Source: Lentinula raphanica | Taxonomy: Eukaryota > Basidiomycota > Agaricomycetes > Agaricales > Omphalotaceae | Assembly (NCBI GenBank): GCA_027919835.1 | Contig: JANVFP010000017.1 | Coordinates: forward strand, 310,001 to 374,000 | Reading direction: 5' to 3' | Length of the DNA: 64,000 nucleotides | In this document: positions 9,772 to 62,472 of the stretch, in pieces | Layout of the letters: the number at the start of each line of letters is the position of its first letter | How positions within the stretch are numbered: the stretch's first letter is position 1 | The notes under the pieces: model-generated | The model's database searches: none | Seen by the model: only the letters and a program-made list of their open reading frames with translations | What the model was told of the DNA's origin: nothing | Translations under genes and position numbers: made by a program

Positions 9772-10979
9772 TTTTCCTCAGCTGATACTGTAAAGCTTTT
9801 GTAAAAAGACCTGATGAGTTATCCAGGAGCTTTTGAAAATAGTTGTGACGACACAGAGGGGGCTCCGGAAATGGCTCCGGGGGGTGGGCATGCCTGTCAC
9901 CACCTGTCACATCTGACCTATATTTACTGTTTTGGGTAATTAATAATTATCCAGATATTAAATAAGCGGTACATTTGTAAAAAATCCTGATAAACTATAA
10001 AAATTCAAAAAAAACCCAAAAAAACCTAATTAGGTCAAATCGGGGTATGTAAACAAAATAGCCTTATATGGTAAAAATGCTGTAGGATCTATCTAGGTGC
10101 TAAAAATAGCCAAAAAAATCACTAAAAATGCTAAAAATATGTAGGGATGGTATATAGCCTATTGCAGATCCAGGCATCCGAAAATTACCAAAAAAGGAAA
10201 TTTTTGATGATGATGTCATCTTGTAGCAAAAAATCTGAAAAAAATCCTAAAAATAGTCAAAAAATTCAGGGGTGCCTTGTTGGCCCTGAAAATGCAAAAT
10301 AAAAAAAAATACGCGACAAGTGTAAAAATTTTTGTTACTCCAAATCATACCAAATCCACTATATAGTCAGTATATATAATGTATATGCTATATTTAGCAT
10401 CCTAGTACCCTCATTGGGCTAAAAATAGAACTTAATCTCATCTGGTAGCAAAAAATCTGAAAAAATCATAAAAAATACTCAAAAAATTTAGGGGTGCCTC
10501 ATTGGCCCTGAAAATGCAAAATAAAAAAATTTACACGACACAATTGAAAAACAACATCATTCCAAATCTTATCAATAGTTAGTATATATTATGTATATAC
10601 TATTTATAGCATCCCTAGTACCCTCAATCACTTATATCACTCAAGAATCCTACCAAACTGACAACATTGAGTAAATGTAATGTACATGGTATTTTTAGCA
10701 CACCTAGTACCCTTAAAAACTCAGAACAATTTATATCACTCAATATGTTCAGTATACTTAGTACTCATCACATTTAACACACTAAAACTCGGAACAGTAC
10801 TTATATGTATCATACTTAACACAGTTGGCAATGAAAATACTCAAAACAGTGTTATCAGTCACTATACTTAACACACTTAACAGTCAAAAAGTCGGAATAA
10901 TGTTACTTGATATACATAACACACTCATTGTTATACTACAACACACTTATAACAATGAGTTTTGGGCGCTTATGGGTGC

Positions 10980-11183
10980 TTATTTGGTATTTTTGGGTCG
11001 AAATTCTTTAATAGCACACTCAATAATTTTTGTGTGGGGTTTATACTGTGTAAGGATGTTGTTTATATCATACTACACTTGATACAATTTGGAGAACTCA
11101 AGATTACAGCCTGTGGGGCTGGCTATATTGTGATCTTTTGTGATATAACAGTGTTTTATGTAAATGTCAATGCATACACCCAT
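10980..11183 (-). pseudogene. 67-codon core frame, left arm (one stop)
   Basis: Reading outward from the loop, ATG at 11183 gives MGVCIDIYIKHCYITKDH..., one TAG about two thirds through, then INNILTQYKPHTKIIECAIK and a final TAA. It aligns without gaps to the intact 67-codon frames at 33618-33821, 34100-34303, 41874-42077 and 42356-42559. No known family is recognised. Confidence 0.5.
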
Positions 11184-11461
11184 GTTATGAAGTCAAACTG
11201 CGACTGGGTCATGGAAAGAGTCATCCTACAACCTATTCCATGCTAACTCTATGTGATACAGCCAAGAGATCTGTAATGGGGGTCATTGAATATGACATCT
11301 ATTGTTACATATAGGTGTAGACATCTATAGTGTACATGAAACATGTACATATATATCACAGAGTCCAATAGTCATAGTGAGTATCTGAACCATGTCCAGA
11401 CACTTCTAGTAGACTGTAGGAGTCATTCCTTCATGAACCACTATCAGTATACTTGCATTAC

Positions 11462-11665
11462 ATGGACATATGCATTGACATTTACATAAAACACTATTAT
11501 ATTACAAAAGATCACAATATAGCCAGCCCCACAGGCTGTAATCTTGAGTTCTCCAAATTGTATCAAGTGTAGTATGATATAAACAACATCCTTACACAGT
11601 ATAAACCCCACACAAAAATTATTGAGTGTGCTATTAAAGAATTTCGACCCAAAAATACCAAATAA
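11462..11665 (+). pseudogene. 67-codon core frame, right arm (one stop)
   Basis: Mirror copy of the left-arm frame, diverging from the central loop, beginning MDICIDIYIKHYYITKDH and carrying the same TAG. It ends at the TAA preceding the GCACCCATAAGCGCCC boundary. Confidence 0.5.
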
Positions 11666-12873
11666 GCACCCATAAGCGCCCAAAACTCATTGTTATAAGT
11701 GTGTTGTAGTATAACAATGAGTGTGTTATGTATATCAAGTAACATTATTCCGACTTTTTGACTGTTAAGTGTGTTAAGTATAGTGACTGATAACACTGTT
11801 TTGAGTATTTTCATTGCCAACTGTGTTAAGTATGATACATATAAGTACTGTTCCGAGTTTTAGTGTGTTAAATGTGATGAGTACTAAGTATACTGAACAT
11901 ATTGAGTGATATAAATTGTTCTGAGTTTTTAAGGGTACTAGGTGTGCTAAAAATACCATGTACATTACATTTACTCAATGTTGTCAGTTTGGTAGGATTC
12001 TTGAGTGATATAAGTGATTGAGGGTACTAGGGATGCTATAAATAGTATATACATAATATATACTAACTATTGATAAGATTTGGAATGATGTTGTTTTTCA
12101 ATTGTGTCGTGTAAATTTTTTTATTTTGCATTTTCAGGGCCAATGAGGCACCCCTAAATTTTTTGAGTATTTTTTATGATTTTTTCAGATTTTTTGCTAC
12201 CAGATGAGATTAAGTTCTATTTTTAGCCCAATGAGGGTACTAGGATGCTAAATATAGCATATACATTATATATACTGACTATATAGTGGATTTGGTATGA
12301 TTTGGAGTAACAAAAATTTTTACACTTGTCGCGTATTTTTTTTTATTTTGCATTTTCAGGGCCAACAAGGCACCCCTGAATTTTTTGACTATTTTTAGGA
12401 TTTTTTTCAGATTTTTTGCTACAAGATGACATCATCATCAAAAATTTCCTTTTTTGGTAATTTTCGGATGCCTGGATCTGCAATAGGCTATATACCATCC
12501 CTACATATTTTTAGCATTTTTAGTGATTTTTTTGGCTATTTTTAGCACCTAGATAGATCCTACAGCATTTTTTACCATATAAGGCTATTTTGTTTACATA
12601 CCCCGATTTGACCTAATTAGGTTTTTTTGGGTTTTTTTGAATTTTTATAGTTTATCAGGATTTTTTACAAATGTACCGCTTATTTAATATCTGGATAATT
12701 ATTAATTACCCAAAACAGTAAATATAGGTCAGATGTGACAGGTGGTGACAGGCATGCCCACCCCCCGGAGCCATTTCCGGAGCCCCCTCTGTGTCGTCAC
12801 AACTATTTTCAAAAGCTCCTGGATAACTCATCAGGTCTTTTTACAAAAGCTTCACAGTATCCTGTGTTTTCCT

Positions 12874-18947: not shown

Positions 18948-19522
18948 CACTTCAGGCAACCCCCCCCCTTCCCCCCTCCCCCCCCCCCAACCAGGTCTTC
19001 TTAGGATAATTATTAAATGTCAGTATTCATACCTAAGAGCCCCCTAAGTATCATGTGTTACACTCTTGAACACACTTATACACTTAACAACCAGAAACTT
19101 GCATATAACATTCTTTAACATACTCAACACACTACATCATTACATGCAATACTTAAATGTCTACTTAACATCGATTCAAATAGTTAGAGCAGTATTATCA
19201 CTGATTACACTTGTTACACTCAAAATATTTCATCAATCAGTATAACACACCTTCAATACAACATTGTTATACAATGATAGGCATATAGTAATGATTTTTG
19301 GGCACTTATGGGCACTCATTTTAGGTCTTCAACTCAAAATTCTTGAATATCACATCCTATAATTTTTGTATAGATTTTATACTGTGTCAGGATGGTGTTC
19401 ATATCATGCTCCTCAGGATTTGAATCCAAGAACACAGAAATATATTTTCTAGGGTAGGCTATATAGTGATCTTTTGTGATGTGACAATTAGTATTTGGAT
19501 AAATTACACTGCATATATCCAT
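18948..19522. mobile_element. Half of a CACTTC-type palindromic element (A3)
   Basis: Begins CACTTCAGGCA followed by a C-rich run (about 18958-18992) and ACCAGGTCTTCTTAGG. The body resembles the inner arm of the 32.5- and 59.9-kb elements and includes the TTTTGGGCACTTATGGGCAC boundary. It stops at the loop side of the 67-codon frame; the second arm is missing. No GGTAGCTACC motifs remain, so the outer-arm type differs from A1 and A2. Confidence 0.65.
19334..19522 (-). CDS. 67-codon core frame homologue (A3)
   Basis: Reads MDICSVIYPNTNCHITKDHY, then NTILTQYKIYTKIIGCDIQE and a stop five codons earlier than homologues. It aligns without gaps to the other core frames. No domain is recognised. 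It is conserved among elements with different termini, but whether it is expressed is unknown. Confidence 0.35.
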   Translation of the reverse strand: MDICSVIYPNTNCHITKDHYIAYPRKYISVFLDSNPEEHDMNTILTQYKIYTKIIGCDIQEF

Positions 19523-19829
19523 GTTTTGCTGCTTTTTCCTTTTCTCTTCATACCACTACTAACATCCTCAGAACATCCTCATTATGGTTGATGAACCACC
19601 CCACCTTACCCACATATATCCATGATATCAGGAACTCAATTCACAACTTGAATTTGATCCTTCTTATTGCTGTTTCTTGCTGCTCACTAGGCCATATCAA
19701 AGATGTATGTTTTCTAGTTTTCAGCTTGTAGTCATTTCTGTCTCACATTTTTCTTAAACAGGTTTGGAAGGGAAGTGTAAAAGGAAGAGAGGGAGGACAT
19801 TACTAAGGAGAGATAGAAGGGGTTTTTAC

Positions 19830-30107: not shown

Positions 30108-32497
30108 TTATGTTGGCCTGGTTTTTCGGTTGATGGGAGGGGGACGTTTCTTTACCTTTACCCAAGAAGCAGATGGACCAGGCGAAGGCGATCGAGAAAC
30201 GTCCTTGGTGACAGGGGGACGCTTCTTTGCCCGAGGAGCAGATGGGCCAGGTGATGAAGATGCCCAAAGATCCGATGGTGTTGTTGATTTATGGTGGCTA
30301 TTGTCTTCCTCTTCCTCATCTGTATCTGACAGCCCACCTTTCCTCGCATGAAGATAGCTCTTTGAGTGAGCCACAGCAGCAACAATGCTACCATTCTCAT
30401 CCAATACAGTCCCAAGCTTTGCTTGATCCTTGAGAGAAAGTTTCCGTTCATCTAAGTATGCATTAGAAATAAGTTTCATGACCTTGAGCAATAACTTACC
30501 TTCACTCCATCGAACAACCTCAAAATATGTTCCCTCATCATGGTCTGCAACCTCTTGTCCCTGTGCCTTTGCCATTTCTTGCTCAATATGTTCCCTTCGG
30601 GGATCACAGATCCTTTTAAGGTCCTTGTTCTTGACCTGGTTTATATTCTCGTATCCCTCCATGAACCCATTTCTTGTCGAGATACCACATCCGAAGAACG
30701 GTAGTCCAACAGGCCAATTGATGATGCGGATTTTTGCTTTCCAAGCATATTCGACGAAGTTAGTCATCTGAATTTTGAAACGATCCGCGGCTTCTTTTCC
30801 CAAAATGCGATCTAGGTGTTCCCATAAGTCCAAAGCATGATTGGAATTAGAGACCACTTACTGATGTCGTATGCAATTATAATTGGCATGATATGTCTAT
30901 TGCGTGCCCGAATATCTGAGGTCACTATACAGTGCCCATACAAAGCAGCTAGGGCAGCATCAACCTGGCGTGAGACCATGTTTGCGACACTATGATGTAT
31001 GGTTAGTAAAACCAAAATCTCAAAATCCAACCCACTTACGCGAGCTGAGCTGCGATATCTTTCGCCTGCGTCAACATTTGAGTTCCGTTCCTTGCTTTGA
31101 CTTCCTGTAAGGGTTGAGTTGATACCCAGATTGACGGTTGAGCGTCGGGGTGAATGATATATCCTCCAATATGAAATCCAGTCTCTTGGTATACTCGGTT
31201 TGCCTTAGGTGACAGTTAGTACACAAAACCTTGCACTCCATAAACAAAAGCATACCATGTTGATGATTGGCCGAATGACCTTCCACACCATGCCCTCAGA
31301 CTTTCCTTTCGCAACAGACTGTTGGACAAAACTATCATAGTGAGCCCAATACCAGTCAATTTGCTGTTGCAGTGCTCGCTCCCGGGCATCGGGGTCGTTA
31401 AACTCTTCGTCGGACAATCTTTCGTGCAAGAAGTCGTCCATTGCTTTACTGACGATTTTCGAGTATTCACCGATTGGCACTGAGGGTTTAAATTTGTGAA
31501 CGAGCAGCCAGATTGAGTGAGAAGCAGATACATACTTTCCTTGGGACGCTTCTGGTCTCCATGGTACTTGTACCATTTCTGCCATATGTTCCACGTTGTC
31601 ATTTCGCGCGTAGGCCCTGCCTCGGCATTGACATACTTGAAGCAGGTTTCAACCGGCTTGCCAAACTCCCTTGCGATCTTTTCGATTTCTGCGTTCTTTT
31701 CAGCGATTATGGCATCTAATCGATCTTTCGCTGCTTGAGGAAGAGCACCCCTGCCCCCTTCGACCGGTGGACTGTTTGGTCGGGAGCATGGTTCAGTTTG
31801 GGGCATTTCCGGAGGAACTCGACGTTTGCCTGTGGATTTTTTGGACTTGCTCAGTTTGGCAGGCGGCTGTCTGGACTGAGCCAATGCTTGACCACGACGT
31901 TTAGCCCGTTTAGTAAGAAGGGTGGAGGGTTTTGGTTTGCGTGAACCGCGAGAACGACGTTGAGGACTTTTGGGGTCTTCTTCATCCTCGTAATCCTCTT
32001 CCTCCTCTTCTTCTTCCTCCTCCTCCTCCTCCTCACTGGCGTACTTGTCTGAGTCATCCTCATCATCCTCCCCTTCCGCCTTTGACTTGGACAAGTTCCG
32101 ACCGTCGTCGTATTCTTCATCCCTCAGTCCGGAAAAGGTCGAGGCCCGCGATCTGCTCAAACGGTTGGACCTGCGGGGTTTGGGGAGTGATCGCTGCTGT
32201 TTGGGCTCGTCCTTGTCCTTGTCCTTGTCCTTGTCCTTGTCCTTGTCCTTGTCCTTGTCCTTGTCCTCGTCCTCGTTCTCTTCTTCGTTTTCATCAACAA
32301 CTTCTTTTGCTTTACCCTTGGAATTTTTCCTTGCCTTCTCGAGAACATCCTCGTCGGGTTCCGAAGGTGGTGATTGAGCAGAGCTGGCATAACTAACAAG
32401 TTGAACAGGGGAAGATGGGTGTTCCGGAGAAGGTGGGCGTTTCAGAGAAGGTTCGCGTTCCGGAGAAGATTGTGGTTCAAAGGAAGGCTGATGTTGA
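30108..32497 (-). pseudogene. Agaricomycete-type uncharacterised protein gene, 5' truncated
   Basis: At least five exons. Exon 1 is open from the element border at 32497 to about 31536: Ser/Pro-rich, then a (Lys-Asp)n tract, poly-Glu, a basic region (SRGSRKPK, LTKRAKRRGQ) and ETCFKYVNAEAG with NIWQKWYKYH. The following exons read PIGEYSKIVSKAMDDFL, ALQQQIDWYWAHYDSFV, VYQETGFHIGGYIIHPD, then VSRQVDAALAALYGHCIV. The last region (30857-30108) contains LGKEAADRFKIQMTNFVEY, IRIINWPVGLPF and a Ser/Pro/Lys tail. I recognise the layout from uncharacterised Agaricomycete proteins; the function is unknown. The N-terminus is cut by the CACTTC element at 32498, so it is probably inactive. Confidence 0.6.
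32206..32271. repeat. Hexamer repeat encoding (Lys-Asp)n
   Basis: About ten to eleven tandem copies of TTGTCC (plus strand), in frame as Lys-Asp on the minus strand. A GAG-rich poly-Glu tract follows at about 31985-32035. Confidence 0.9.
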
Positions 32498-33617
32498 CAC
32501 TTCAGGCACCCACCAAACAGGCCTTCTTAGGCCAAAAAAATGATGACATGGAATAGGCCTAAGAGGCCCATAATAGGGGTAGGCTACCCTAGGGTCCTTA
32601 AGGTAGGTAGCTACCACAGGCTGGGTAGCTACCCTACTTAGGGTGCCAGGGGTCCTTTTGAGGTAGCTACCCTATGTTTTTGAAAAATTGTTAGGTTTAG
32701 TTTACTAATACTCTGGTAACATTAATCATCTCATATCTCATAAAACAGGCTAGAGCCTTTGATGTACTTGATCACAATTACTAAACTTTAACAAAGTAAA
32801 TTCAGGTAGCTACCCTCTGTAAAAGGTGAATCAGGGTAGCTACCCATTCTGAGAAGTCAATCAGGGTAGCTACCCACTCTGGAAAGTTGATCAGGGTAGC
32901 TACCCATTCTAAAAGTTAATTTGGGTAGCTACCCACTCTAAAAAATCAATTAGGGTAGCTACCCCACACTCCTGAGTGGCTACCTACTTACAAGGTAAAT
33001 CATGGTACCTACTTAACACACTCATTATAATATCTGAAAATTTAACACAGCAGTACTGTATATTATCCTCAACACAATTGATACACCTAACAATTTACAA
33101 AATTGGGACAGTGATACTATGTGTTATACTTGATGAACTTAACACTTTTAACAGTGGAGAACTTAGATCTGCATGACTGCATGTCATATTTGATGTTTAG
33201 GTGGGTAGCTACCCATGGAGGAGTTTGAATTGGGTAGCTACCCATGGGAGAATTTAAGTTGGGTAGCTACCCAAGATATTTTACATGAGGGGTAGCTACC
33301 CACCATAATGCTTTAGTTGGATCAACTTGGATGATGGATCACTCAATTTCATTCTTAGTATATTAATTTCCTTATACACATTAGACTGAGCAACTAAAAA
33401 CTTACATATAATATACTTTAACATACTCAATACTTGCACTTCATTATTCAATATAATACTCACATGTACACTGAACAATCAAATAATCAGAGCAGTATTA
33501 TCACTAATTACACTTGTTACACTCAAATATCTCATCAATAAATATAACACACCTTCAATACAACATTGTTATACAATGATAGGCATATAGCAACGATTTT
33601 TGGGCGCTTATGGGCGC

Positions 33618-33821
33618 TTATTTTGGGTTTTCAACTCGAAATTCTTGAATAGCACATCCTATAATTTTTGTATAGGTCTTATATTGTGTCAGAATGTTGT
33701 TCATATCATACTTCTTAGGATTTAAATCCGAGAACACAGAAATCAATTTTCTAGGGCAGGATATATAGTGATCTTTTGTAATGTAACAGCAATTTGGATA
33801 AATTACACTGCATATATCCAT
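33618..33821 (-). CDS. 67-codon core frame, A1 left arm
   Basis: Intact ATG-to-TAA frame reading outward from the loop: MDICSVIYPNCCYITKDHY..., then NNILTQYKTYTKIIGCAIQE and FRVENPK. The stop overlaps TAAGCGCCCATAAGCGCCC, the most conserved block between element families. It resembles no family I know. Coding potential is suggested only by gap-free alignment with diverged copies. Confidence 0.4.
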   Translation of the reverse strand: MDICSVIYPNCCYITKDHYISCPRKLISVFSDLNPKKYDMNNILTQYKTYTKIIGCAIQEFRVENPK

Positions 33822-34099
33822 GTTTTGCTGGGAGACTGATGTTATCTCATGTGAAATTCACTGCAACAGTCTACTGACAGTGTCTGTACATGCTTTCAAT
33901 GGTCATTATGATGATTGGACTCTGCATCCTACATTTACATATTTCATGTACACTTGAAATATGGATAGGTGCATGTAACTGCAGATGTCATAATCAATGA
34001 CCCCCATGGTAAATCTCTTAGCTGTATCACATGGAGGTATCCTAGAATGGGTCATAGAGTGTTGCTTTTTATGCCCCAGTAGCAATTTGGCTGCATGAC

Positions 34100-34303
34100 A
34101 TGGATATATGCAGTATGATTTACACAAATTGCTGTTACATCACAAAAGATCACTATATATCCTGCCCTAGAAAATTGATTTCTGTGTTCTCGGATTTAAA
34201 TCCTAAGGAGTATGATATGAACAACATCCTGACACAATATAAGACCTATACAAAAATTATAGGATGTGCTATTCAAGAATTTCGAGTTGAAAACCCAAAA
34301 TAA
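34100..34303 (+). CDS. 67-codon core frame, A1 right arm
   Basis: Mirror copy, divergent from 33618-33821 across the loop; MDICSMIYTNCCYITKDHY and the same C-terminus FRVENPK. Differences from the left arm are few. Confidence 0.4.
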   Translation: MDICSMIYTNCCYITKDHYISCPRKLISVFSDLNPKEYDMNNILTQYKTYTKIIGCAIQEFRVENPK

Positions 34304-35254
34304 GCGCCCATAAGCGCCCAAAAATCGTTGCTATATGCCTATCATTGTATAACAATGTTGTATTGAAGGTGTGTTATATTTATTGATGAGATATTTGAGT
34401 GTAACAAGTGTAATTAGTGATAATACTGCTCTAATTATTTGATTGTGCAGTGTACATGTGAGTATTATATTGAATAATGAAGTGCAAGTATTGAGTATGT
34501 TAAAGTATATTATATGTAAGTTTTTAGTTGCTCAGTCTAATGTGTATAAGGAAATTAATATACTAAGAATGAAATTGAGTGATCCATCATCCAAGTTGAT
34601 CCAACTAAAGCATTATGGTGGGTAGCTACCCTCATGTAAAATATCTTGGGTAGCTACCCAATTCAAATTCTCCCATGGGTAGCTACCCAATTCAAACTCC
34701 TCCATGGGTAGCTACCCAAACAAAAATCAGCATTGATGGGGAACACATATTATCACTGTTCCAATTTTGTAAATTGTTAGGTGTATCAATTGTGTTGAGG
34801 ATAATATACAGTACTGCTGTGTTAAATTTTCAGATATTATAATGAGTGTGTTAAGTAGGTACCATGATTTACCTTGTAAGTAGGTAGCCACTCAGGAATG
34901 TGGGGTAGCTACCCTAATTGATTATTTAGAGTGGGTAGCTACCCAAATTAACTTTTAGAATGGGTAGCTACCCTGATCAACTTTCTCTAAAAGGGTAGCT
35001 ACCCTGATTCACCTTTTACAGAGGGTAGCTACCTGAATTTACTTTGTTAAAGTTTAGTAATTGTGATCAAGTACATCAAAGGCTCTAGCCTGTTTTATAA
35101 GATATGAGATGACTAATGTTACCAGAGTATTAGTAAACTAAACCTAACAATTTTTCAAAAACATAGGGTAGCTACCTCAAAAGGACCCCTGGCACCAGTG
35201 CTTTCTAGCTCTCCTAGGCTTGTAGACACTCTAAAGTAAGGGTCTTCAGCAAGT

Positions 35255-35560
35255 CAGGTGACCTGTGGGTACTTGCAGGTAAGATCCATGGGAATACCTG
35301 CAGGTTTTGTGACCCGCAGGTCCAGGAACCTGTATGCACAGGTCATGACAGGTCACAGATCAGACTTAGGAAATTATTTTATAGGGACAGGTCCAGGTAA
35401 TCTGCAGGTATACTTGGACCTGCAGGTCAGGTACCTGTGAGCACAGGTCAGCAACAGGTCACAGATCAGGATGTTGGAGACAAAATACCTGCAGGTCAGG
35501 TCACAGGTATGACCCATCTGGAAGCATTGCCGTGTTGGCAGATGCATTGTTGCAGGTAAC
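35255..35560. repeat. ACCTGCAGGT-rich subterminal region
   Basis: Multiple ACCTG/CAGGT motifs, several as full ACCTGCAGGT palindromes, with two larger units of CACAGGTCA...CAGGTCACAGATCAG about 110 bp apart. Non-coding. It lies between the putative hAT terminus and the hAT coding relic, so it is probably the subterminal region of that element. Confidence 0.65.
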
Positions 35561-35903
35561 GGTAAAGAGCTAGGGTGAGTGAGCATAATATTTGACTATA
35601 AACCAATGCTAGAAACTGACCTTGTCTTGAACTCCATACTCATCTAGAGTTTCTATGAGTGCCTTGGCCATGTTTTCCGCTGAATGGGAGCATGGGAGCT
35701 TGACAAAATTTAATAGAATTTCAGAAAGCTCTTCAGTCTCGTTGTTCCTGCGTTTGCAGAGTATTTTGGCAATAATACTCATGAATGCCTTGTGATTAGG
35801 TGACGTCCAGCAATCTAGCTCAATGGGCAGCAAATATTCATATTTCTGAAGCGCTCGGTGAGTCGTTCAGTTTCATCTTGGGTTGTCTGAGTGCTCACCT
35901 GTA

Positions 35904-36127
35904 CATCAGCAAAACTGACCTGGTGCCTAGGCTGCCTAGAGATACCCCCCAAAACCTCAGCAGTCTGAAAACTTTGAATTTGCCTGAAAAAGCCTGAGCA
36001 AGCCTGAGTTTGCCTGGAAAAGCCTGGGCAAGCCTAAGTTTGCCTCAGATTTCTTTGGGTGCTTTGGGAGAGCCTAGGTTTTGGGGGTATCTCTGGGTTA
36101 CCTGGGCCAAGGGTACTTTTCCTGATG
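35904..36127. mobile_element. CATCAGCAAAA-type MITE in hAT relic (224 bp)
   Basis: CATCAGCAAAACTGACCTGG...TACTTTTCCTGATG flanked by TA/TA. Its removal with one TA restores AAGGAGTTACAG followed by the donor GTGAGC of the hAT gene. Nearly identical to 18502-18726. Confidence 0.9.
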
Positions 36128-36873
36128 TAACTCCTTGGCCAGACTTTCTTTTGCAGCCACATATAATTTCCTCACATCTCTTGCAATGGTCTTCTCACTT
36201 GGCACATACTGGCTTGGGTGTCCTTCTTCTGGCAGCAGCTTGTGCTTGATCCAGGGTACTCTCTTTGATTGCTGCAAGAGCATCTTCACCATGACATCTC
36301 TTTACATGGTTGCACATGTTCCCTATATTAATTGTGAGTTCTACATGTTTGCTCAACTCAACAAGGCTGACCTACCTGTAGATCCCTGGTCTCCTGTCTG
36401 CACACCAAGTTGTTGTATCTTCTTGCTGCATTGTATACATTGATACACGAGGTATCTTGGCTTGTTGTTCTTTGCAAATTCAACCTCTGGCTCTTCGTGG
36501 AAGAATGCGTATACGGGGGATTTTCGTTTCTTCAAGTCTTTTTCTACCAGATTAGGTGAGTGCAGTGCCTCTGTTGTGTATGGGACCACTGACTTATTTG
36601 AGCTACAGCTGCCTCCTTCGCCTCTTTCACTTGCTTGGTCATGTCCACAACATCATTGTTGTCATTGTTGTTGTCATTCTGCCAACCCATACTTGCTGCT
36701 GATTCATGTTGTTCCTCCTCAGTGTTTGACCATACGGTCCTTGTCCTTTTCGTTCACTTTTTTGGCTTTTTGTTGCATTTGTGTCAGATGCTGGCTTGCT
36801 TCATTTGGGCATGTTCTGTAGCCCTCGTAGTCACTGTAGCTGAGTTGTACAAATTTTTTAATGATTTTCAACA

Positions 36874-37069: not shown

Positions 37070-40000
37070 TTACTCTCTGTATAATGTCTTGTAAGTATAT
37101 AAACTACTCCAATTATTAACTAGAAAATGTGTCGCATGATCAAGAACATTAGAGGAAGTCCATATAGTATGTTTGGAACTATTTCTATCATGCCTAGGGA
37201 TAAGCATACAGCTTTGGCATATATTGGACAAAGGAATAATAGACCAAGGAACAATACCATCTATCAAAGGTAATTTATGGACACAGGCCATGTTGTGAGT
37301 ACTTTGGTCCACAAGAGTTTGTGTAGGAGGACTATACCATTCTATATATGCTAAAACAGTAGAAGGCCACCACGTAGGTGATGGACCTTTGTGGGAGCCT
37401 ATAAGGCTAAGTTGAGAAGGTAAACGAAAAAGAATTTTGACTCTACCAATTCTGGTACCAGAGAAGCTTGTAGCTTCAGCTGAATCTCCTGTAAGAACTA
37501 CCACAGTATCAAACCTACCACCTTTCAATGGGCTAGCCTTGACTACATCCATAAGAGTACTGTCTTCATCCAAAGTTTCTGGGGAGAACTTGAAAGAGTA
37601 GTAGACGTCCAAATGATTGAAAGGCAATTGCTTGTATAGACTATCTTCCACATCTCTTCGATTAGAACCTGGCTTCAGCATAGCCAAGTAACGCTTGAGA
37701 TTAGAAGAGAAAAAAGGAACCCGATGGCCCTCCTCTATGGAAGATAGTGTTTTATTTGGAGCAGTGGGTTCTTTAGGTAGGAAGAGACGCAGATTTGAAG
37801 CCTCAGATGAGTCCATAGGGAGAGAAGAAGTAGTAGAGTCCAAAGAGGAATTCTGGAAGCGTTGGCGCTCCAATATCCAGGATAATTCCTTGTTAAAGGA
37901 CTGGACATTCTCATGTCGAGCCAACCATTTCGTCATTTGAGGAAATTCATCCCTTTTGTTGGATGCCCTCCATCCTTTTTTAGCAAAATCAATGTGAAGA
38001 CGCTCAAACATCTCCATATTGTAGTTATCTGTACAACCAAAAAAGCGTATCATCTCAACATAATGTTGAAGGGAATGGAATTTGGGAATATTGAGATCAT
38101 CGTGAACAGAAAGATTGATAAATGATGCTTTCTTGGTGTGCCAGAAATTGAGAGAGTCTGTCATGTAGGATAGAGTATCCTCGTCGTGGGTAGTGTATTG
38201 AGCTAAGTAGATAAAATCTAGAATAGCTCTCACAGCAGTAAGAGCGTTCCTTGGCATATCTGATCCCACTAGGCATCCTAAAAGGATCTTTCCCATGTTT
38301 TTACGCTCAGATCCAGATATTTGGGAAAGAGCTGATATGCCATTTTTGAAATGACGAACGCCGTAAGAAGGAGGAAAGCAACGTATTCGGTGATTTAACT
38401 CGTGGTTTCCTAGAATATCCTGACACCAAGAGATAAGGTGTTTGAGAACCCCTTGGTATAGTTGATGTAGAACGTCTGGTGTTATACTGAAGTGTATATC
38501 TGTAAAGGGAAGATCATCCCAAAAAGGACGGTAAACGTAGCCAGATACCTCCTTTTCCATACAGAAGGCAAAATACTGGGAGGAAGAAGAAGTTGAGCTA
38601 CGAGCTTCAGCCATGACTTCCAGGGTCCACTCCTTTGTTCTCTTGGAAAAGCGATCTGGACTACTCAGGTCTGCAGCAGTTACCTGACACTTGGGACAGG
38701 TTCCGTACTTTGAACAAGTCACTAGACATTGTTCTGGAAAGTCTGCCACGTAGCTGGCAAGGATAGGATGCACTAGCCTAACTGTTCCATCTCCACTCGC
38801 CAGCTCAACACCTAGTCTTCCAGCTTTCTGCAAAGGAGAAAAGATAATTCTCATAGCTTCGTGGAAAAGACGTTGATAACGTGAGCTGAGTTCTCTTTTG
38901 GGTAGAACGTCCTTGGCCATTTTGTCTACAGGCAGATAAGTGAGAAGAATACAAGCTTGCTGTGAAGGTTTTCTACGTAGAGCTTTTGGTATATTGCCTA
39001 GAGTGAGATATACGGGATAGGCCTGCTTGCTACCGGAAAATTGAGTAAGCTGAGTTTTATCCGTCGCGATTATAAGAGGAGCTATTGTGGCACCCTCAGG
39101 CAGGAGTTTCTGCAGTTCCAGTCAAATGAAGTTAAGAGAGAAGAGATTCCTAGATCAACTCACCTGGGTAAACTGCCACCATTTTCCCTCCCACATTTTG
39201 GAATAAACCCTCTTCTTCTTCTCTTTATCCTGAAAAATCTTCTTCGGCTTATATACCAGATGGTCTGCAAGGGCAGGATCTCCCCACAAGCTTTGAACAC
39301 ACTCCAGGATATCCCTATGGCGAAGAATGAAGTCATCGTCAGGTTGATCCTTGAATCGCAGCTTCTTCACTTTCCACTCTCCTGCTCTTGGCCTGAGGGC
39401 GTCTATTTTCTTGTGAAGTCCTGCGATATTGGTATAGGATAGACCTAGTTTATCTGTAACCTAGACAAATATTTTCAGGGTAAGAGAGAGAGCGAATAGA
39501 GAGGTTTTCCTTTGACTTACACCAGGAATAGACAACAGGCGATCCAGAGATTTGTGGCCTATACCATCTTTTACAACCCATTCAGCAACTCTCCAGTCCA
39601 TTTCAGAGGCAAAGGGGGCAAAAGCAGTGTCTGGAAGAGGAGAAGAACCATCCATAGGGTGATCGACATCCAGATTATGGGCCAGTCTCCAGCGTGTTTC
39701 TAAAGAAGAATCTATACGAATAACCTTTCCTGCTTGTGGGTCTTCCTCTACAACTGTATCCAATTAATCTTCATCATCATCCAATGTTCTGAGCTTGGCA
39801 CCTAGTTGTCTTTCTAGAAGGGAGTGGCGAGAGGCCAAAGTGTTGGGTCCAAGTCCTGCTTCTCCTATGTCCAGCTGGTGATCTACTGCCACAAAGTGGA
39901 AAAGATCGTTCTCCTCCTCTAACTCCTGTAATAGATCAGCAGTCTCCTCTGGGAGAAGCAGATCCTCCTCTTCCCTTGCCATAGCCTCCTTTTCTAGCCA

Positions 40001-40138
40001 TTCTGTCTGAAGAACATTATCTAGAGCAGCAGTCTTCTCATAGTTTCTGAACCAATGGCAGCTTTTAGCTTGAGAGAGATGCATGTTGAGAGATTCTTGA
40101 GTGTTGAACACTCTGCCACAGTTCGCAGGACACTCCAT
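37070..40138 (-). pseudogene. Plavaka (EnSpm/CACTA) transposase, one in-frame stop
   Basis: Exons 40138-39521, 39460-39164 and 39109-37070. N-terminal finger CPANCGRVFNTQESLNMH. Then a single in-frame TAA at 39766-39764 between DDDED and LDTVVEEDPQ. Exon 2 has WKVKKLRF and MWEGKWWQ. Exon 3 has KLLPEGATIAPLIIATDKTQ (first catalytic Asp), KTQLTQFSGSKQAYPVYLT, CPKC, TPDVLHQLYQGVLKHLI (second Asp region) and NYNMEMFERLHIDFAKKGWR (Glu region), then a C-terminal domain to RE-stop. These are hallmarks of basidiomycete Plavaka transposases. Apart from the TAA, about 980 codons look complete, so the inactivation is recent. Terminal repeats were not found nearby. Confidence 0.88.
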
Positions 40139-41016: not shown

Positions 41017-41873
41017 CAGCTGATACTGTAAAACTTTTGTAAAAAATACTGATAAGTTATCGGGTACCTATTGCAAATAGTTGTGATAACCCGGAGGGGG
41101 TCCCGGAAATGGCCCCGGGGGTGGTCATGCCTGTCACCACTTGTCACATATGGCTTATATTTACTGTTTTGGGTAATTAATAATCATCCAGATATTAAAT
41201 AAGCAGTACATTTTCAAAAAAGCCCAAAAATTCATAAAAATTCATAAAAAACCTAAAATGGCCTGATTAGGTCAGATCAGGATATGTAAGCAAATGACCT
41301 CATATGATAAAAAATGATGTAGGGCCAATCTAGGTACTAAAAATAGCCCAAAAAATCACTAAAAATACAAAAAATATTTAGGGATGGTATAGAGCCTATT
41401 GCAGGCCCAGGCACATCAAAATTACCAAAAAGGAAAAATTGATCATGATCTTATCTCGTAGCAAAGAATCTGAAAAAAATCCTAAAAATAGTCAAAAAAT
41501 TCAGGGGTGCCTTGTTGGCCCTGAAAATGCAAAATAAAAAAAATACGCAACAAGTGTAAAAATTTTCATCACTCCAAATTATTCCAAATCCACTATACAG
41601 TCAGTATATATGATGTATATGCTATATTTAGCATCCTAGTACCTTTATTGGGCTAAAAATAGAACTTGATTCATCTGATAGCAAAAAATCTGAAAAAATC
41701 ATTCAAAATACTCAAAAATTCAGGGGTGCCTTATTGGCCCTGAAAATCAGTTGACAATGAAAATACTCAAAACAGTATTATCAGTCACTATACTTAACAC
41801 ACTTAACAGTTAAAAAGTCGGAACAATGTTACTCTATATACATAACACACTTATAACAATGAGTTTTGGGCGC

Positions 41874-42077
41874 TTATTTGGTGTTTTTGAGTCGAAATTC
41901 ATTGATAGCACACTCAATAATTTTTGTGTGGGCTCTATATTGTGTCAGGATGTTGTCTATATCATATTCATCTAGATATAATTCAGAAAACTCGAAATTA
42001 CAACCTGTGTGGCTAGCTATACTACGATCTTTTGTGATATAACACTGTTTTATATGAATGACAGTGCATACACCCAT
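41874..42077 (-). CDS. 67-codon core frame, B2 left arm (intact)
   Basis: MGVCTVIHIKQCYITKDRS..., then DIDNILTQYRAHTKIIECAI and NEFRLKNTK, stop. Same length and register as the family A frames, which differ at roughly 40 percent of residues by eye, with no insertions or deletions. No domain is recognised. Confidence 0.4.
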   Translation of the reverse strand: MGVCTVIHIKQCYITKDRSIASHTGCNFEFSELYLDEYDIDNILTQYRAHTKIIECAINEFRLKNTK

Positions 42078-42355
42078 GTTATGAAGTCAAATTGCTGCTA
42101 GGTCATGAAAAGAGTCATCCTACAACCTATTCTATGCTAACTCTATGTGATACAGCCAAGAGATCTGTAATGGGGGTCATTGAATATGACATCTATTCTT
42201 ACATGTAAGTGTAGACATCTATGGTGTACATGAAACATGTACATGTGTATCGCAGTGTCCAACCTTTATGATAGCTATTTGAATCATGTACAGACACTGC
42301 CAGTAGATTGTAGGAGTGCTTTCCTCATGAACTAGCATCAGTATACTTACACTAC

Positions 42356-42559
42356 ATGGACATATGCATTGGCATTTACATAAAACACGATTATATCACA
42401 CAAGATCACAGTATAGCTAGCCACACAGGTTGTAATTTCGAGTTCTCTGAATTATATCTAGAGGAATCTGATATAGACAACATCCTGACACAATATAGAG
42501 CCCACACAAAAATTATTGAGTGTGCTATTAATGAATTTCGACTCAAAAACACCAAATAA
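42356..42559 (+). CDS. 67-codon core frame, B2 right arm (intact)
   Basis: MDICIGIYIKHDYITQDHS..., ending INEFRLKNTK, stop; divergent from 41874-42077 across the loop. Confidence 0.4.
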   Translation: MDICIGIYIKHDYITQDHSIASHTGCNFEFSELYLEESDIDNILTQYRAHTKIIECAINEFRLKNTK

Positions 42560-42733
42560 GCGCCCATAAGCGCCCAAAACTCGTTGTTATAAGTGTGTTA
42601 TAGTATAACAATGAGTGTGTTATGTATATCAAGTAATATTGTTCCGACTTTTTGACTGTTAAGTGTGTTAAGTATAGTAACTGATAACACTGTTTTGAGT
42701 ATTTATTGTCAACTGTGTTAGACATAATACATA

Positions 42734-43289
42734 CTATGGTTGTTAGGGATCATTCCCTACTTTGAAAATCACCAATAACACTTGAGCTACTCACCTGTTC
42801 TAAAATCTAAGTACACAGTCCAATTCATAGGGTAAATAAACCTATAAAGCATGATCATTGTCTTTTTTGTGGCACTTGTTCAAATGTCAGACAACATTTG
42901 AGAAAAAACAGGGATCATGGACTCCCACGTTTTGCCAACAATTATTCACTTGTGCAAGATGCAAAACACCACAGATTGATTTGGAAATTTTTATAGTCAT
43001 TCTTGAAGACCATCTGAGCATGCCCATGTAACTTTTTCCTGGGTCGGTACCTAATTTGCACTGTTCTTGGCATGTTACTACCAAATCACAGTGAGATCAT
43101 ACGGAAATATGAAGTTTTATATCTATTCTGTAAGAAATTCCTTCCTAATGGTTAAATACATCGAAAGCACACTACATCAGTGAGATATACTGCAATTTGC
43201 AAAGGCTCTGAGTTACTTGAACGCTCAAAATTGAGCATTTTTCAGGGACGGAATGATCCCTGTGTGGGAATGATTCCTAACAACCATAG
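42734..43289. mobile_element. TA-flanked element nested in B2 (556 bp)
   Basis: Perfect inverted ends CTATGGTTGTTAGG...CCTAACAACCATAG with TA on both sides; GGATCATTCC and its complement lie just inside. Non-coding; Tc1/mariner-type MITE by target site. Confidence 0.85.
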
Positions 43290-43551
43290 TATCACTACTG
43301 TTCTGAGTTTTAGTATGTTAGGTGTGATAAGTACCAAGTGTACTGAACATATTGAGCAATAAAAATTGTTCTGAGTGTTCAAGGGTACTAGGTGTGCTAA
43401 AAATATCATGTACATCATATTTACTCAATGTTGTCAGTTTGGTGTGATTCTTGAGTGATATAAGCTATTCTGAGTGATTGAGGGTGCTAGAGGTGCTAGA
43501 AATAGCATATACATCATATATTCTAACTGTATAGTGGATTTGGTATGATTT

Positions 43552-43677
43552 GGTGTCAGGAATTGAACCACTTATATAGTGCTGGGAACAATACCAGAGT
43601 GACCTGGTATTGTGGTCTTTTGGCCCAGTTGGATTATTGGCACTCATTCCCAGCATGTCAGTTCTTCACATTTGGAG
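43552..43677. mobile_element. Short insertion in the B2 right arm
   Basis: About 120 bp (TGTCAGGAATTGAACCACTT...) interrupt the sequence ATTTGGAGT(A/G)A that is continuous in other family B copies. ATTTGG occurs on both sides. No clear inverted repeat. Confidence 0.5.
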
Positions 43678-44237
43678 TGATAAAATTTTTTACACTTGTC
43701 GCGTATTTTTTTATATTTTGCATTTTCAGGGCCAATGAGGCACCCCTGAATTTTTTGACTATTTTTATGATTTTTTCAGATTTTTTGCTACTAGATGACA
43801 TCATGATCCAATTTTTCCTTTTTTCGGTAATTTTGATGTGCCTGGACCTGCAATAGGCTCTCTACCATCCCTAAATATTTTTAGCATTTTGAGTGATTCT
43901 TTGGCTATTTTTTAGTACCTAGATTCACTCTACATCATTTTTGATCATATGAGGTCATTTGCTTACATACCCTGATCTGACCTAAATCTGGCTTTTTTAG
44001 GATTTTTTAGATTTGTTATGAATTTTCGGGTTTTTTTGAAAATGTACTGCTTATTTAATATCTGGATAATTATTAATTACCCAGAACAGTAAATGTAGGC
44101 CCCATGTGACAGGTGGTGACAGGCATGACCACCCCCCGGAGCCATTTCCGGAGCCCCCTCCGAGTTATTGCAGGTTTTTTCAAACGTTCCTTGAAAACTC
44201 ATTGGTACTTTTTACAAAAGCTTCACAGTATCCTGTG

Positions 44238-53187: not shown

Positions 53188-56008
53188 CACAGGATACTGT
53201 GAAGCTTTTGTAAAAAGACCTGATGAGTTATCCAGGAACATTTGAAAATAGTTGTGACGACATGTATGGGGGTCCGTATTGGACAAAAATAAATGAAAAA
53301 AAAGTAGCATAGAAATGAAAAAATATTGTCGTGATCACAGTAAATACCAAAAATATTGTCGTGATCATGACAATTTCTGAAAAATACTGTTGTGGTCACG
53401 ATTGCCGCGAAAAATATATGATGATCACGACAAAAAATTTTCTTTGAAATTGTGTAACTTAAATTAATTTTGTTTGCATCATGATTGCGTCTTTTTTCTC
53501 CAATCAGCAAAATATTTTTTGAAAGCACGGTCACGATCCAAATCACGATCACTGTTTTGGCACAGAACATAATTTTTTTCTGTAATCATGATCTTCAATT
53601 TCAGTTTTTTACTTTTTGCCAATTTGATAGGGGAATCACAATCATGCAGATACATAAACAAAGGAGCAAACACTCAGTTTCTGAGGTTGATAAGGGAGAG
53701 GAGGGGGGAAAGGGAGGAAAGTATGAGAAGTGGTCAGAATCAATAGAGGAGTTTACAGAGCTTATCTGGATAGATGTGATCAAATGGAAGCTTGCTGAGT
53801 CTCAAGTAGACTATCATATATCGTACCTTATCTAACAGCCTAAGTACCGGTACTCTTGAGTCTTCGGAGTCTACACCAAGTCTACACCCTCATTCAGGTA
53901 TATCACGTGATCTTGACGCTTATGTAGACTCACTGAGCTAGGTACTTTAACGCCCAGTCACGATTGCTGGCCGGCCGAATTTTTTTTGTTGCCGGGAATT
54001 TTTTTTTGGGGGGGGACAAAATTTTTTAACTCAATCACACCGCCAATCACGATCACGATCGTGATCATTAATTCACGAAAAATCTTAGAATTCCTATAGA
54101 ATCGAAAATGTTTCGGCCGGTCATTGTGACTGGCATTTCTTTTTTTGCCAAACATTGTGATCACGACAATATTTTTCGATCAAGCAGTGATCATCACAAA
54201 ATTTTTTTCATTCCAAGAAATATTTTTGATTTATTTTTGTCCAATGCAGACCACTATAGACATGGAGGGGGCTCCGGAAATGGCTCCGGGGGGTGGGCAT
54301 GCCTGTCACCACCTGTCACATCTGACCTATATTTACTGTTTTGGGTAATTAATAATTACCCAGATATTAAATAAGCAGTATATTTGTAAAAAATCCTGAT
54401 AAACTATAAAAATTCAAAAAAAACCAAAAAAACCTAATTAGGTCAAATCGGGGTATGTAAACAAAATAGCCTTATATGGTAAAACATGCTGTAGGATCTA
54501 TCTAGGTGCTAAAAATAGCCAAAAAATCACTAAAAATGCTCAAAATATGTAGGAATGGTATATAGCCTATTGCAGATCCAGGCATCCAAAAATTACCAAA
54601 AAAAGGAAACTTTCGATGATGATGTCATCTCGTAGCAAAAAATCTGAAAAAAATCCTAAAAATAGTCAAAAAATTCAGGGGTGCCTTGTTGGCCCTGAAA
54701 ATGGAAAATAAAAAAAAATACGCGACAAGTGTAAAAATTTTTGTCACTCCAAATCATACCAAATCCACTATATAGTCAGTATATATGATGTATATGCTAT
54801 ATTTAGCATCCTAGTACCCTCATTGGGCTAAAAATAGAACTTGATCTCATCTGGTAGCAAAAAATCTGAAAAAATCATTAAAAATACTCAAAAAATTCAG
54901 GGGTGCCTCATTGGCCCTGGAAATGCAAAATAAAAAAATTTACACAACATAATTGAAAACCAACATCACTCCAAATCTTATCAAATTTACTATATAGTCA
55001 GTATATATCATGTATATACTATTTATAGTATCCCTAGTACCCTCAATCACTTATATCACTCAAGAATCCTACCAAACTGACAACATTGAGTAAATGTAAT
55101 GTACATGGTATTTTTAGCACACCTAGTACCCTTAAAAACTCAGAACAATTTATATCACTCAATATGTTCAGTATACTTAGTACTCATCACATTTAACCCA
55201 CTAAAACTCGGAACAGTACTTATATGTATCATACTTAACACAGTTGGCAATGAAAATACTCAAAACAGTGTTATCAGTCACTATACTTAATACACTTAAC
55301 AGTCAAAAAGTCGGAACAATGTTACTTGATATACATAACACACTCATTGTTATACTACAACACACTTCTAACAACGAGTTTTGGGCACTTATGGGCACTT
55401 ATTTGGTATTTTTGAGTCGAAATTCTTTAATAGCACACTCAATAATTTTGTGTGGGGTTTATACTGTGTAAGGATGTTGTTTATATCATACTACACTTGA
55501 TACAATTTGGAGAACTCAAGATTACAGCCTGTGGGGCTGGCTATATTATGATCTTTTGTAATATAACAGTGTTTTATGTAAATTTCCTTTTTTTGGTAAT
55601 TTTTGGATGCCTGGATCTGCAATAGGCTATATACCATTCCTACATATTTTGAGCATTTTTAGTGATTTTTTGGCTATTTTTAGCACCTAGATAGATCCTA
55701 CAGCATTTTTTACCATATAAGGCTATTTTGTTTATATACCCCGATTTGACCTAATTAGGTTTTTTTTGGTTTTTTTTTGAATTTTTATAGTTTATCAGGA
55801 TTTTTTACAAATGTACCGCTTATTTAATATCTGGGTAATTATTAATTACCCAAAACAGTAAATATAGGTCAGATGTGACAGGTGGTGACAGGCATGCCCA
55901 CCCCCGGAGCCATTGAGTCCGGAGCCCCCTCCATGCCGTCACAACTATTTTCAAATGTTCCTGGATAACTCATCAGGTCTTTTTACAAAAGCTTTACAGT
56001 ATCAGCTG
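53188..56008. mobile_element. Palindromic foldback element, family B copy 3 (2821 bp)
   Basis: Left end CACAGGATACTGTGAAG, right end (inward) CAGCTGATACTGTAAAG; exact 7-bp duplication ACATGGG at 53181-53187 and 56009-56015. The left arm is near full length (to about 55580); the loop and inner right arm are deleted at the junction TGTAAATTTCC, leaving about 425 bp of right arm. A 994-bp element is nested at 53265-54258. Confidence 0.92.
53265..54258. mobile_element. Nested element with CGTGATCACG motifs (994 bp)
   Basis: Inverted ends TATGGGGGTCCGTATTGGAC / TATAGTGGTCTGCATTGGAC, both continuing AAAAATAAAT, flanked by 6-bp GACATG on each side. The interior carries many TCGTGATCACGA-like motifs near both ends (53325-53560 and 54040-54200). 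No transposase. Short frames inside are not convincing. Confidence 0.8.
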
Positions 56009-59890: not shown

Positions 59891-62472
59891 CACTTCAGGC
59901 ACCCACCAAATAGGCCTTCTTAGGCCAAAAAAATGGTGTACCTAAATAGGCCTAAGAGGCCCAAAATATGGGTAGGCTACCCTGGGGTCCTTAAGGTAGG
60001 TAGCTACCACAGGATGGGTAGCTACCCCCATAGTGTGAGGTTTTGAGATGGGTAGCTACCCTACTTAGGGTGCCAGGGGTCCTTCTGAGGTAGCTACCCT
60101 ATGTTTTTGAAAAATTGTTAGGTGTAGTTTACTAATACTCTGGTAACATTAGTTATCTCATACCTTATGTAACAGGATAGAGCCTTTCAAGATGTACTTG
60201 ATCACAATTACTAAACTTTAACAAAGTAAATTCAGGTAGCTACCCACTCTGAGAAGTCAATCAGGGGTAGCTACCCACTCTAAAAATTAATTAGGGTAGC
60301 TACCCCACACTCCTGGGTGGCTACCTACTTACAACTTACAAGGTAAATCATGGTACCTACTTAATACACTCATTGCCCATAACATCAAAAAATATAATAC
60401 AGTAGTGTGTATTGAACCCATACTTAATACAATTGATACACCTAACAATTAAAAAAATTGCAAGAGTAATAATATATGTTATACTTGATACACTTAAACA
60501 CTGGTAACAGTGTAAGAACTCAGATCTGCATTACTGCATCACTTCATGCACCCCCCAACCAGCCTTCTTAAATTACTATATGTCAGTATTCATACCTAAG
60601 AGGCCCCCCAAATGGGTAGGCCACCCAGTGTTTGTTTAGGTGGGTAGCTACCTGACCAGCAGGTAGCTACCCCATGAATGCTGATTTTTGTTTGGGTAGC
60701 TACCCACAAAGAACTCCTATCAGGGTAGCTACCTATGGAGGAGTTTGAATTGGGTAGCTACCCATGGGAGAATTTAAGTTGGGTAGCTACCCAAGATATT
60801 TTACATGAGGGGTAGCTACCCACCATAATGCTTTAGTTGGATCAACTTGGATGATGGATCACTCAATTTCATTCTTAGTATATTAATTTCCTTATACACA
60901 TTAGACTGAGCAACTAAAAACTTACATATAATATACTTTAACATACTCAATACTTGCACTTCATTATTCAATATAATACTCACATGTACACTGAACAATC
61001 AAATAATCAGAGCAGTATTATCACTAATTACACTTGTTACACTCAACATATCTCATCAATAAATATAGCACACCTTCAATACAATATTGTTATACAATAA
61101 TAGGCATATAGCAACGATTTTTGGGCGCTTATGGGCGCTTATTTTGGGTTTTCAACTCGAAATTCTTGAATAGCACATCCTATAATTTTTGTATAGGTCT
61201 TATATTGTGTTAGGATGTTGTTCATATCATACTTCTTAGGATTTAAATCCGAGAACACAGAAATCCATTTTCTAGAGCAGAATATATAGTGATCTTTTGA
61301 TTTATTGATGAGATATGTTGAGTGTAACAAGTGTAATTAGTGATAATACTGCTCTGATTATTTGATTGTTCAGTGTACATGTGAGTATTATATTGAATAA
61401 TGAAGTGCAAGTATTGAGTATGTTAAAGTATATTATATGTAAGTTTTTAGTTGCTCAGTCTAATGTGTATAAGGAAATTAATATACTAAGAATGAAATTG
61501 AGTGATCCATCATCCAAGTTGATCCAACTAAAGCATTATGGTGGGTAGCTACCCCTCATGTAAAATATCTTGGGTAGCTACCCAACTTAAATTCTCCCAT
61601 GGGTAGCTACCCAATTCAAACTCCTCCATAGGTAGCTACCCTGATAGGAGTTCTTTGTGGGTAGCTACCCAAACAAAAATCAGCATTCATGGGGTAGCTA
61701 CCTGCTGGTCAGGTAGCTACCCACCTAAACAAACACTGGGTGGCCTACCCATTTGGGGGCCTCTTAGGTATGAATACTGACATATAGTAATTTAAGAAGG
61801 CTGGTTGGGGGGTGCATGAAGTGATGCAGTAATGCAGATCTGAGTTCTTACACTGTTACCAGTGTTTAAGTGTATCAAGTATAACATATATTATTACTCT
61901 TGCAATTTTTTTAATTGTTAGGTGTATCAATTGTATTAAGTATGGGTTCAATACACACTACTGTATTATATTTTTTGATGTTATGGGCAATGAGTGTATT
62001 AAGTAGGTACCATGATTTACCTTGTAAGTTGTAAGTAGGTAGCCACCCAGGAGTGTGGGGTAGCTACCCTAATTAATTTTTAGAGTGGGTAGCTACCCCT
62101 GATTGACTTCTCAGAGTGGGTAGCTACCTGAATTTACTTTGTTAAAGTTTAGTAATTGTGATCAAGTACATCTTGAAAGGCTCTATCCTGTTACATAAGG
62201 TATGAGATAACTAATGTTACCAGAGTATTAGTAAACTACACCTAACAATTTTTCAAAAACATAGGGTAGCTACCTCAGAAGGACCCCTGGCACCCTAAGT
62301 AGGGTAGCTACCCATCTCAAAACCTCACACTATGGGGGTAGCTACCCATCCTGTGGTAGCTACCTACCTTAAGGACCCCAGGGTAGCCTACCCATATTTT
62401 GGGCCTCTTAGGCCTATTTAGGTACACCATTTTTTTGGCCTAAGAAGGCCTGTTTGGTGGGTGCCTGAAGTG
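59891..62472. mobile_element. Palindromic element with GGGTAGCTACCC motifs (A2, 2582 bp)
   Basis: Both termini are present: CACTTCAGGCACCCACCAAA and its inverted copy. Arms mirror each other over about 1.25 kb with GGGTAGCTACC clusters. The central loop and the inner right arm are deleted (junction near 61300), so only one core frame remains (61139-61330). Inside each arm is a second terminus-like sequence, CACTTCATGCACCCCCCAAC (60540 and, inverted, to 61823). The left flank is unrelated and the right flank is half of a MITE. Confidence 0.9.
61139..61330 (-). pseudogene. 67-codon core frame, A2 (start lost)
   Basis: C-terminal part identical in pattern to A1 (NNILTQYKTYTKIIGCAIQE, FRVENPK); the normal N-terminus is replaced at the deletion junction. 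Confidence 0.4.

Follow-up and report, generated by a model that had tools for sequence, protein, structure and literature searches.

The DNA analysed here (the window) is a stretch of 64,000 nucleotides at positions 310,001 to 374,000 of a Lentinula raphanica contig (G000:C17:310001-374000), from an assembly of 49.06 Mb in 75 contigs. It contains two elements that are large palindromes. The family A foldback element (32498..35196) has a KDZ-type left end, CACTTCAGGCACCCACC, that matches an element with a KDZ domain hit. Pieces of its arms are 94-98% complementary, the inverted-repeat arms 33290-33828/34093-34631 extending over 539 nt at 98%, and the outer ~144 bp are missing from its right end. 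Its core, taken from edge motif to edge motif (33602..34319, spacing 698), carries a left 67-codon frame on the minus strand (33618..33821) and a right one on the plus strand (34100..34303), stops included. Between their divergent ATGs lies a loop of 278 bp (33822..34099) whose centre is directional. The family B foldback element (41017..44237) has hAT-type ends, inverted-repeat arms of 266 nt at 87% (41864-42129/42304-42569) and a core at 41864..42575 whose left edge has one copy of the edge motif rather than two. Its frames, stops included, occupy 41874..42077 (minus strand) and 42356..42559 (plus strand) on either side of a 278-bp loop (42078..42355). A preliminary description of this DNA had proposed that two families with unrelated ends share one homologous core, and this is what we find at 33602-34319 (A) and 41864-42575 (B), the outer arms being unrelated. 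All four frames are intact as described, with the ATGs diverging from the loop and the stops inside the edge motif. The B end is indeed distinct from that of A, but family B has two different ends, CAGCTGATACTG at 41017 and CAGTATCCTGTG at 44237, and not one.

The window holds further cores beyond those described earlier, one full (10964-11681) and three half cores starting at 19300, 55383 and 61123. The full core (10964..11681, spacing 698, 93.8% to the family E consensus) belongs to another complete hAT-type element, of family E, at 9779..12866, flanked by the 7-bp duplication TTTTCCT. The half core at 55383-55587 lies in a hAT-type element (53188..56008) with the 7-bp duplication ACATGGG, and that at 61123-61300 in a KDZ-type element (59891..62472) for which no target duplication was seen. 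The half core at 19300..19532 is of A type (86-88%). As in foldback transposons, most of each element consists of long inverted repeats around a short middle, and target duplications are present, though some copies lack them. The arms of element 59891-62472 contain, at 60540 and 61823, another pair of KDZ-like ends (CACTTCATGCACC) farther in. No duplication adjoins them, and the pattern is as if the arms had grown in layers. The right arm of the B element contains, at 42731-43292, a small nested element with 27-bp terminal inverted repeats (96%).

Between the A and B elements lies a Plavaka transposon remnant (37070-40144, minus strand; transposase PF18759, E=1.5e-83), adjoined by a frame with a weak C2H2 zinc finger. 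A Copia-like retrotransposon remnant is present at 19920-22468 (plus strand; RVT_2, E=3.1e-32, with a weak integrase match below the cut-off), and a DDE_Tnp_4 transposase fragment at 45014-45490 (minus strand; E=5.2e-6). Two similar genes on the minus strand (23022-26153 and 47655-50516) combine a nephrocystin-3 N-terminal-like NTPase domain with long ankyrin arrays and resemble fungal NLR-type genes. Plavaka, KDZ and hAT matches together with such NTPase/ankyrin genes would fit a basidiomycete-like host. Beside the A element, a frame at 31205-31648 (minus strand) is weakly similar to the second gene of a KDZ element, L079 (L079:4721-5188), with 22% identity over 67 aa (E=2e-7 for the single pair).

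The homology of the cores is apparent at the level of family consensuses. When the consensus of 15 A copies was aligned with that of 43 B-like copies (families B, C, D and E pooled) using MAFFT, 185 differences were found in 712 columns and no gap, which bears out the gapless alignment reported previously. In some individual core pairs, blastn places 2-4 compensating gaps. The outer ~210 bp of each side of the core are symmetrical; the central ~230 bp are not, and there A and B match in a single orientation. Central 30-bp windows of A are 57-83% identical to B in one direction and 17-47% to its reverse complement. Absence of loop homology had been named as the observation that would speak against a shared module; the loops can be aligned. 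Moreover, 12 loops of 305 bases drawn from families A, B, C, D, E and G gave an alignment of 305 columns without gaps, all 12 having the same length. By eye, the loop of L078 is a mosaic of family G-like and family D-like sequence, which suggests recombination within the core.

Allowing up to 2 mismatches, the window contains 7 occurrences of the edge motif, and 100 shuffles contain none. Genome-wide, its 20 bases have 557 exact occurrences, 275 on one strand and 282 on the other; the reversed control has none. The first 100 of these 557 places comprise 40 convergent pairs less than 3 kb apart and 20 unpaired motifs. The spacing is 698 in 22 of these 40 pairs and 696-701 in 36, the others being 379, 677, 693 and 1802. 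No exact match to the motif was found in viral or prokaryotic contig collections. A protein search gave 966 candidates, 150 of which were scored.

Both end types could be related to elements with a transposase domain. In L081, a 1.6-kb sequence around a B-type end, 261 bp are 96% identical to the B-type arm of the element L040, and the outer 262 bp of the right end of the window B element are 94% identical to the L081 end. At a distance of about 0.55-0.85 kb from this end, L081 has a hAT dimerisation domain (PF05699, E=3.9e-9) encoded on the other strand; the hAT link of the B ends is thus read from a C-terminal domain and one element end. The family E ends match the L081 end at 85%. The A end is found on an element at C33:164389-172548 (left end 92% over 209 bp, right end 97% over 137 bp) in which the KDZ gene is known as a domain hit (PF18758, 165973-166668); by its paired ends, a family C element is nested in the same interval. 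The 7.4-kb element L079 (KDZ PF18758, E=2.1e-19) has the A end in common over about the first 22 bp only. A-type ends thus appear to be shared with a KDZ-encoding element, and B-type ends with a hAT-encoding one. At four more places (C14:1044136, C24:515870, C2:108428 and C11:275686), a hAT domain hit is found 1-3 kb beyond a B-type element.

Target duplications were counted, each repeated site once, wherever a locus or window element has paired ends flanked by an exact duplication of 5 bp or more. The hAT-type sites have a duplication of exactly 7 bp in 27 of 27 cases, the hAT label of the C and G ends among them (L024, L056 and L075) being based on the likeness of the terminal hexamer and on the 7 bp themselves. 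The KDZ-type sites have 8 bp in 11 of 15 cases and 7 bp in the other four (L026, L078, L079 and L080); the KDZ label of L026, L032, L059, L077 and L078 (family D, with L032 and L059) comes from the terminal CACTTYAGGCA and, where present, from the duplication length. Among records with paired ends, 7 of the 33 of hAT type and 5 of the 24 of KDZ type have no duplication of at least 5 bp; none was seen either for two elements of the window, 41017-44237 and 59891-62472. Duplication length, where a duplication is present, tracks end type. The hAT-type sites have 7 bp and not the canonical hAT length of 8 bp. A fungal group described from rust fungi, hAT7, has a hAT transposase and 7-bp duplications in the available part of its description (PMC12730594); it shares these with the present elements, for which the likeness is based on the C-terminal domain and the duplication length. 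Duplications of 8 bp are given for Zisupton (PMC12730594, in part) and, with 241-bp inverted repeats, for KDZ1 of Cryptococcus (PMC12810828, in part). The elements described here resemble these KDZ transposons in their 8-bp duplications; unlike them, they are non-autonomous and have the core in place of a transposase. From the shared ends and the duplication lengths we infer that A-type arms are moved by KDZ transposases and B-type arms by hAT-like transposases.

The A element of the window has no transposase of its own, no frame of at least 120 aa being found in 32527-36443, and is therefore non-autonomous. Two longer loci were considered as autonomous partners and rejected. L073 has about 1.4 kb of extra sequence in the loop region, whose frames, read by eye, gave no support for a transposase. 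L074 (C1:307650-313420), a KDZ-ended foldback with an intact 8-bp duplication, contains ~2.5 kb of additional DNA (about 2209-4719) with a piece of a DUF2828 gene (E=7.4e-12), possibly a gene capture; two of its frames were compared with Pfam and no transposase was found.

Near-identical cores occur between the two kinds of ends. L048 has an 8-bp duplication and KDZ-type ends that match the C33 end at 82% over 93 bp, L040 hAT ends and a 7-bp duplication; they have in common a block of 804 bp that is 96.9% identical without a gap. The cores of two other KDZ-ended elements, L032 and L059, match the L040 core at 99% and 96%. For 34 loops, picked by hand among loci of known end type, the tree implies 5 end-type changes (5-5 over bootstraps), 3 of which are forced by supported branches. 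If only A, B, E and L048 are kept, the ends of which are sequence-matched to coding elements, two changes would remain. The preliminary description had suggested an exchangeable core: shared cores with duplications matching their hAT-type or KDZ-type ends, together with the end-type switches on the loop tree, make this well supported. By eye, the block shared between families B and E and L048 ends right after TTGTTATA-N12-TATAACAA, and its limit in the left arm of L032 and of L059 lies inside this motif. Families A, C, D and G are partly alignable farther out than the core edge, again by eye. It is speculation that the palindromic edge TTGTTATA-N12-TATAACAA might serve as a recombination site.

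The arms of a given copy resemble each other more than they resemble those of other copies. Among 17 B copies, the arms within a copy diverge by a median of 0.31% (mean 1.27%, one copy reaching 11.7%), as compared with a median of 1.77% (mean 2.55%) between copies. Arms therefore seem to be alike when a copy is born and to diverge slowly afterwards. Of 195 copy-private arm substitutions, only 33 are present in both arms, a point against the probable reading given below.

The length of the core was examined by comparing changes fixed between families with those private to single rows, using 54 distinct rows from 60 loci; identical rows were collapsed, and L016 and L017 (partial) and L026 (other family) were excluded. 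Private changes in the core comprise 309 substitutions and 20 indels, of which the loop accounts for 123 and 5. Between A and B the fixed changes are 185 substitutions and no indel, a significant difference from the private ones (Fisher p=1.6e-4), although some private indels may be assembly errors, which would weaken the test. Fixed counts for A-C and A-E are similar and are not independent of A-B; the same test gave p=0.055 for B-E and p=0.033 for C-E, and no indel is fixed among the A, B, C and E consensuses. Comparison of cores with their own arms varied among families. In four B-E pairs the arms have 2-6 gaps per 58-68 substitutions and the cores 0-1 per 70-78. Three A pairs count against a length constraint (arms, 4-14 gaps per 18-91 substitutions; cores, 1-2 per 16-30), and in two C pairs gaps are no fewer in the core (2 per 21-22) than in the arms (6-8 per 51-95). 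A constraint on core length is supported by these data, and a function for the core would be a candidate explanation.

In the reading that we consider probable, the elements are non-autonomous foldback DNA transposons with a cassette core, whose arms set the transposase and whose core is held at fixed length through a role in cis. The outer arms would choose the transposase, ends of the CACTTYAGGC type being recognised by KDZ and arms ending in CAGCTG/CACAGG, probably also CAGCTG/CACCCG, by hAT-like transposases. The inner block would act as the cassette, with homologous recombination or template switching in the core or at its edge joining it to new arms. As the two arms of an element resemble each other, an exchange in one arm is probably carried over to its partner, leaving the element symmetrical. 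Copies bearing indels would leave fewer descendants, and the likeliest role of the core would be a cis-acting function, as DNA or transcript, that aids amplification. Some masters may have had a gene in the 67-codon frame, which would be dispensable in cis.

A different interpretation gives the frame the leading part: the core would be a gene module encoding a 67-residue accessory or regulatory protein that intact masters supply in trans, and the loop would be a putative bidirectional promoter. We regard this as rather unlikely. In its favour, 68 of the 117 arms examined have an ATG, 67 codons and a stop at precisely the right offset, the intact arms numbering 17 of 32 for A, 38 of 57 for B and 13 of 16 for C; none is intact among 10 arms of E and 2 of D, which speaks against it. 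A 67-aa relative without stops (P0001) was also found outside the genome, the only one, on a 1498-bp contig. Values of ω in the frame (right, left) are 0.44 and 0.35 for A-B, 0.43 and 0.33 for A-C, 0.28 and 0.21 for B-E, 0.30 and 0.13 for C-E and 0.60 and 0.45 for B-C, while A-E gives 0.75 and 0.34; in 16 other frame or window tests of A-B, ω ranges over 0.47-1.04. The test by dN/dS and frame-breaking indels suggested earlier thus gave a mixed outcome: no indels are fixed among A, B, C and E and ω between A and B or C is 0.33-0.44, but the right frame of A-E stands at 0.75. Permutations preserving the kinds of substitution, in which the two arms of a core are not independent, gave p values for residue changes (left, right) of 0.15 and 0.18 for A-B, 0.035 and 0.27 for A-C, 0.10 and 0.21 for A-E, 0.058 and 0.10 for B-E, 0.002 and 0.15 for C-E and 0.64 and 0.76 for B-C. 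Residue changes observed and expected are 32 and 35.2, and 31 and 33.8, for A-B; for the left frame they are 29 and 34.1 in A-C and 6 and 11.0 in C-E. When absence of stops is added, the p values become 0.020 and 0.025 for A-B and 0.003 and 0.034 for A-C. The left-frame deficits of A-C and C-E therefore favour a protein, and the A-B values, the right frame of A-C and the ω of the right frame of A-E do not.

Private changes in the frame have an N:S of 123:51, with 14 changes to stops. The fixed A-C changes (36:18 and 36:16) do not differ from these (p=0.61 and 0.86), which counts against a gene module; a difference in its favour is seen for C-E on the left (p=0.011), with p=0.25 on the right and p=0.13 and 0.17 for B-E. 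The consensus of family E contains stops, and the copies read of families D (L026, L077, L078) and G (L075, L076) have stops or shifts. L057 and L058 have the same stop in both arms at different insertion sites with their own duplications, and from this shared stop it follows that a master with a broken frame has moved. The 67-residue protein matches no Pfam family, and its fold model is of low confidence (mean pLDDT 46.3, pTM 0.25). Finally, the loop is likewise gapless and shows no codon-position skew between A and B; as stops were seen in its frames, the loop as a protein was rejected. The 67-codon frame as a gene is weakly supported, and the sequence comparisons suggest a gene that is at most weakly constrained.

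The core could instead be a structured non-coding RNA or a DNA hairpin of conserved fold, which we hold to be very improbable. On both strands, the predicted folds of the L040 and L001 loops are more stable than those of shuffled sequences (z of -3.1 to -4.3), and loop length is equal in 12 of 12. We infer that these z-scores are what palindrome tails would give. The consensus fold energy is -31.7, as compared with -89 to -99 kcal/mol for the sequences singly, covariation is weak (term of -2.3) and compensatory change is found in 7 of 64 pairs of the consensus fold. An Rfam search gave nothing at gathering score; its four hits (E of 0.65 to 8.1) are far below the cut-offs and at chance level. 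The loop as a structured RNA was set aside as not supported, and no conserved RNA fold was found that would correspond to the conserved structure offered as an option in the preliminary description. An explanation of another kind, which we find improbable, dispenses with exchange between superfamilies: one old foldback core would have had its ends diverge or be overgrown by nested insertion. The flanks of L002 match core sequence, second KDZ-like ends lie inside arms at 60540/61823 and L032 retains a B arm on one side only, all of which agree with such a history. Against it, L048 is symmetrical, with an identical junction in both arms just past TATAACAA and an 8-bp duplication, its core is 96.9% identical to that of L040, and at least 3 end-type changes fall on supported branches of the loop tree.

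The non-autonomous foldback elements with a cassette core have partial parallels in known systems. Galileo, a foldback-like transposon of the P superfamily in Drosophila, has very long, internally repetitive inverted repeats and 7-bp duplications, and chimeric copies that in some cases have both ends from one subfamily and the central region from another (PMC3573991, in the part available). Long inverted repeats, 7-bp duplications and chimeras are thus common to both; as far as that text goes, Galileo swaps occur within one superfamily, whereas the core described here lies between the ends of two superfamilies and has a fixed length. The available text of another source places the highly conserved domain of V-SINEs also in MER6, a Mariner-derived MITE (PMC6887750). 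There too a conserved inner domain is present in two kinds of element, but that case, so far as described there, is a move between a retroelement and a DNA transposon, and the present one involves two DNA-transposon superfamilies in one genome and palindromic elements. TET/JBP dioxygenase genes are passengers across fungal superfamilies including hAT7, Dileera (KDZ) and EnSpm, according to the accessible part of PMC12730594. They likewise provide a passenger found in several DNA-transposon superfamilies; in that account the passenger is an enzyme gene, while the core has weak coding evidence and a fixed length across non-coding sequence too. Foldbacks with swapped centres are known from Galileo and a shared inner domain from V-SINEs and MER6; a fixed-length core common to hAT and KDZ elements was not found among the titles and abstract openings listed in searches of the open-licence literature.

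A bolder proposal is that the core is itself a parasite of transposons, a fixed-length cassette with its own lineage that switches between hAT and KDZ vehicles and enters at the TTGTTATA-N12-TATAACAA edge. We put this forward tentatively, as possible but doubtful. If it were true, evolution of the core would be decoupled from that of any single transposase. Non-autonomous elements are usually viewed as derived from one transposase family. A core found between the ends of two superfamilies, with its length kept over 26% divergence and 557 motifs in the genome, makes it possible to test for selection on a passenger module as opposed to a transposon. It also suggests that such elements should be classified by their ends and duplication length, and not by internal sequence.
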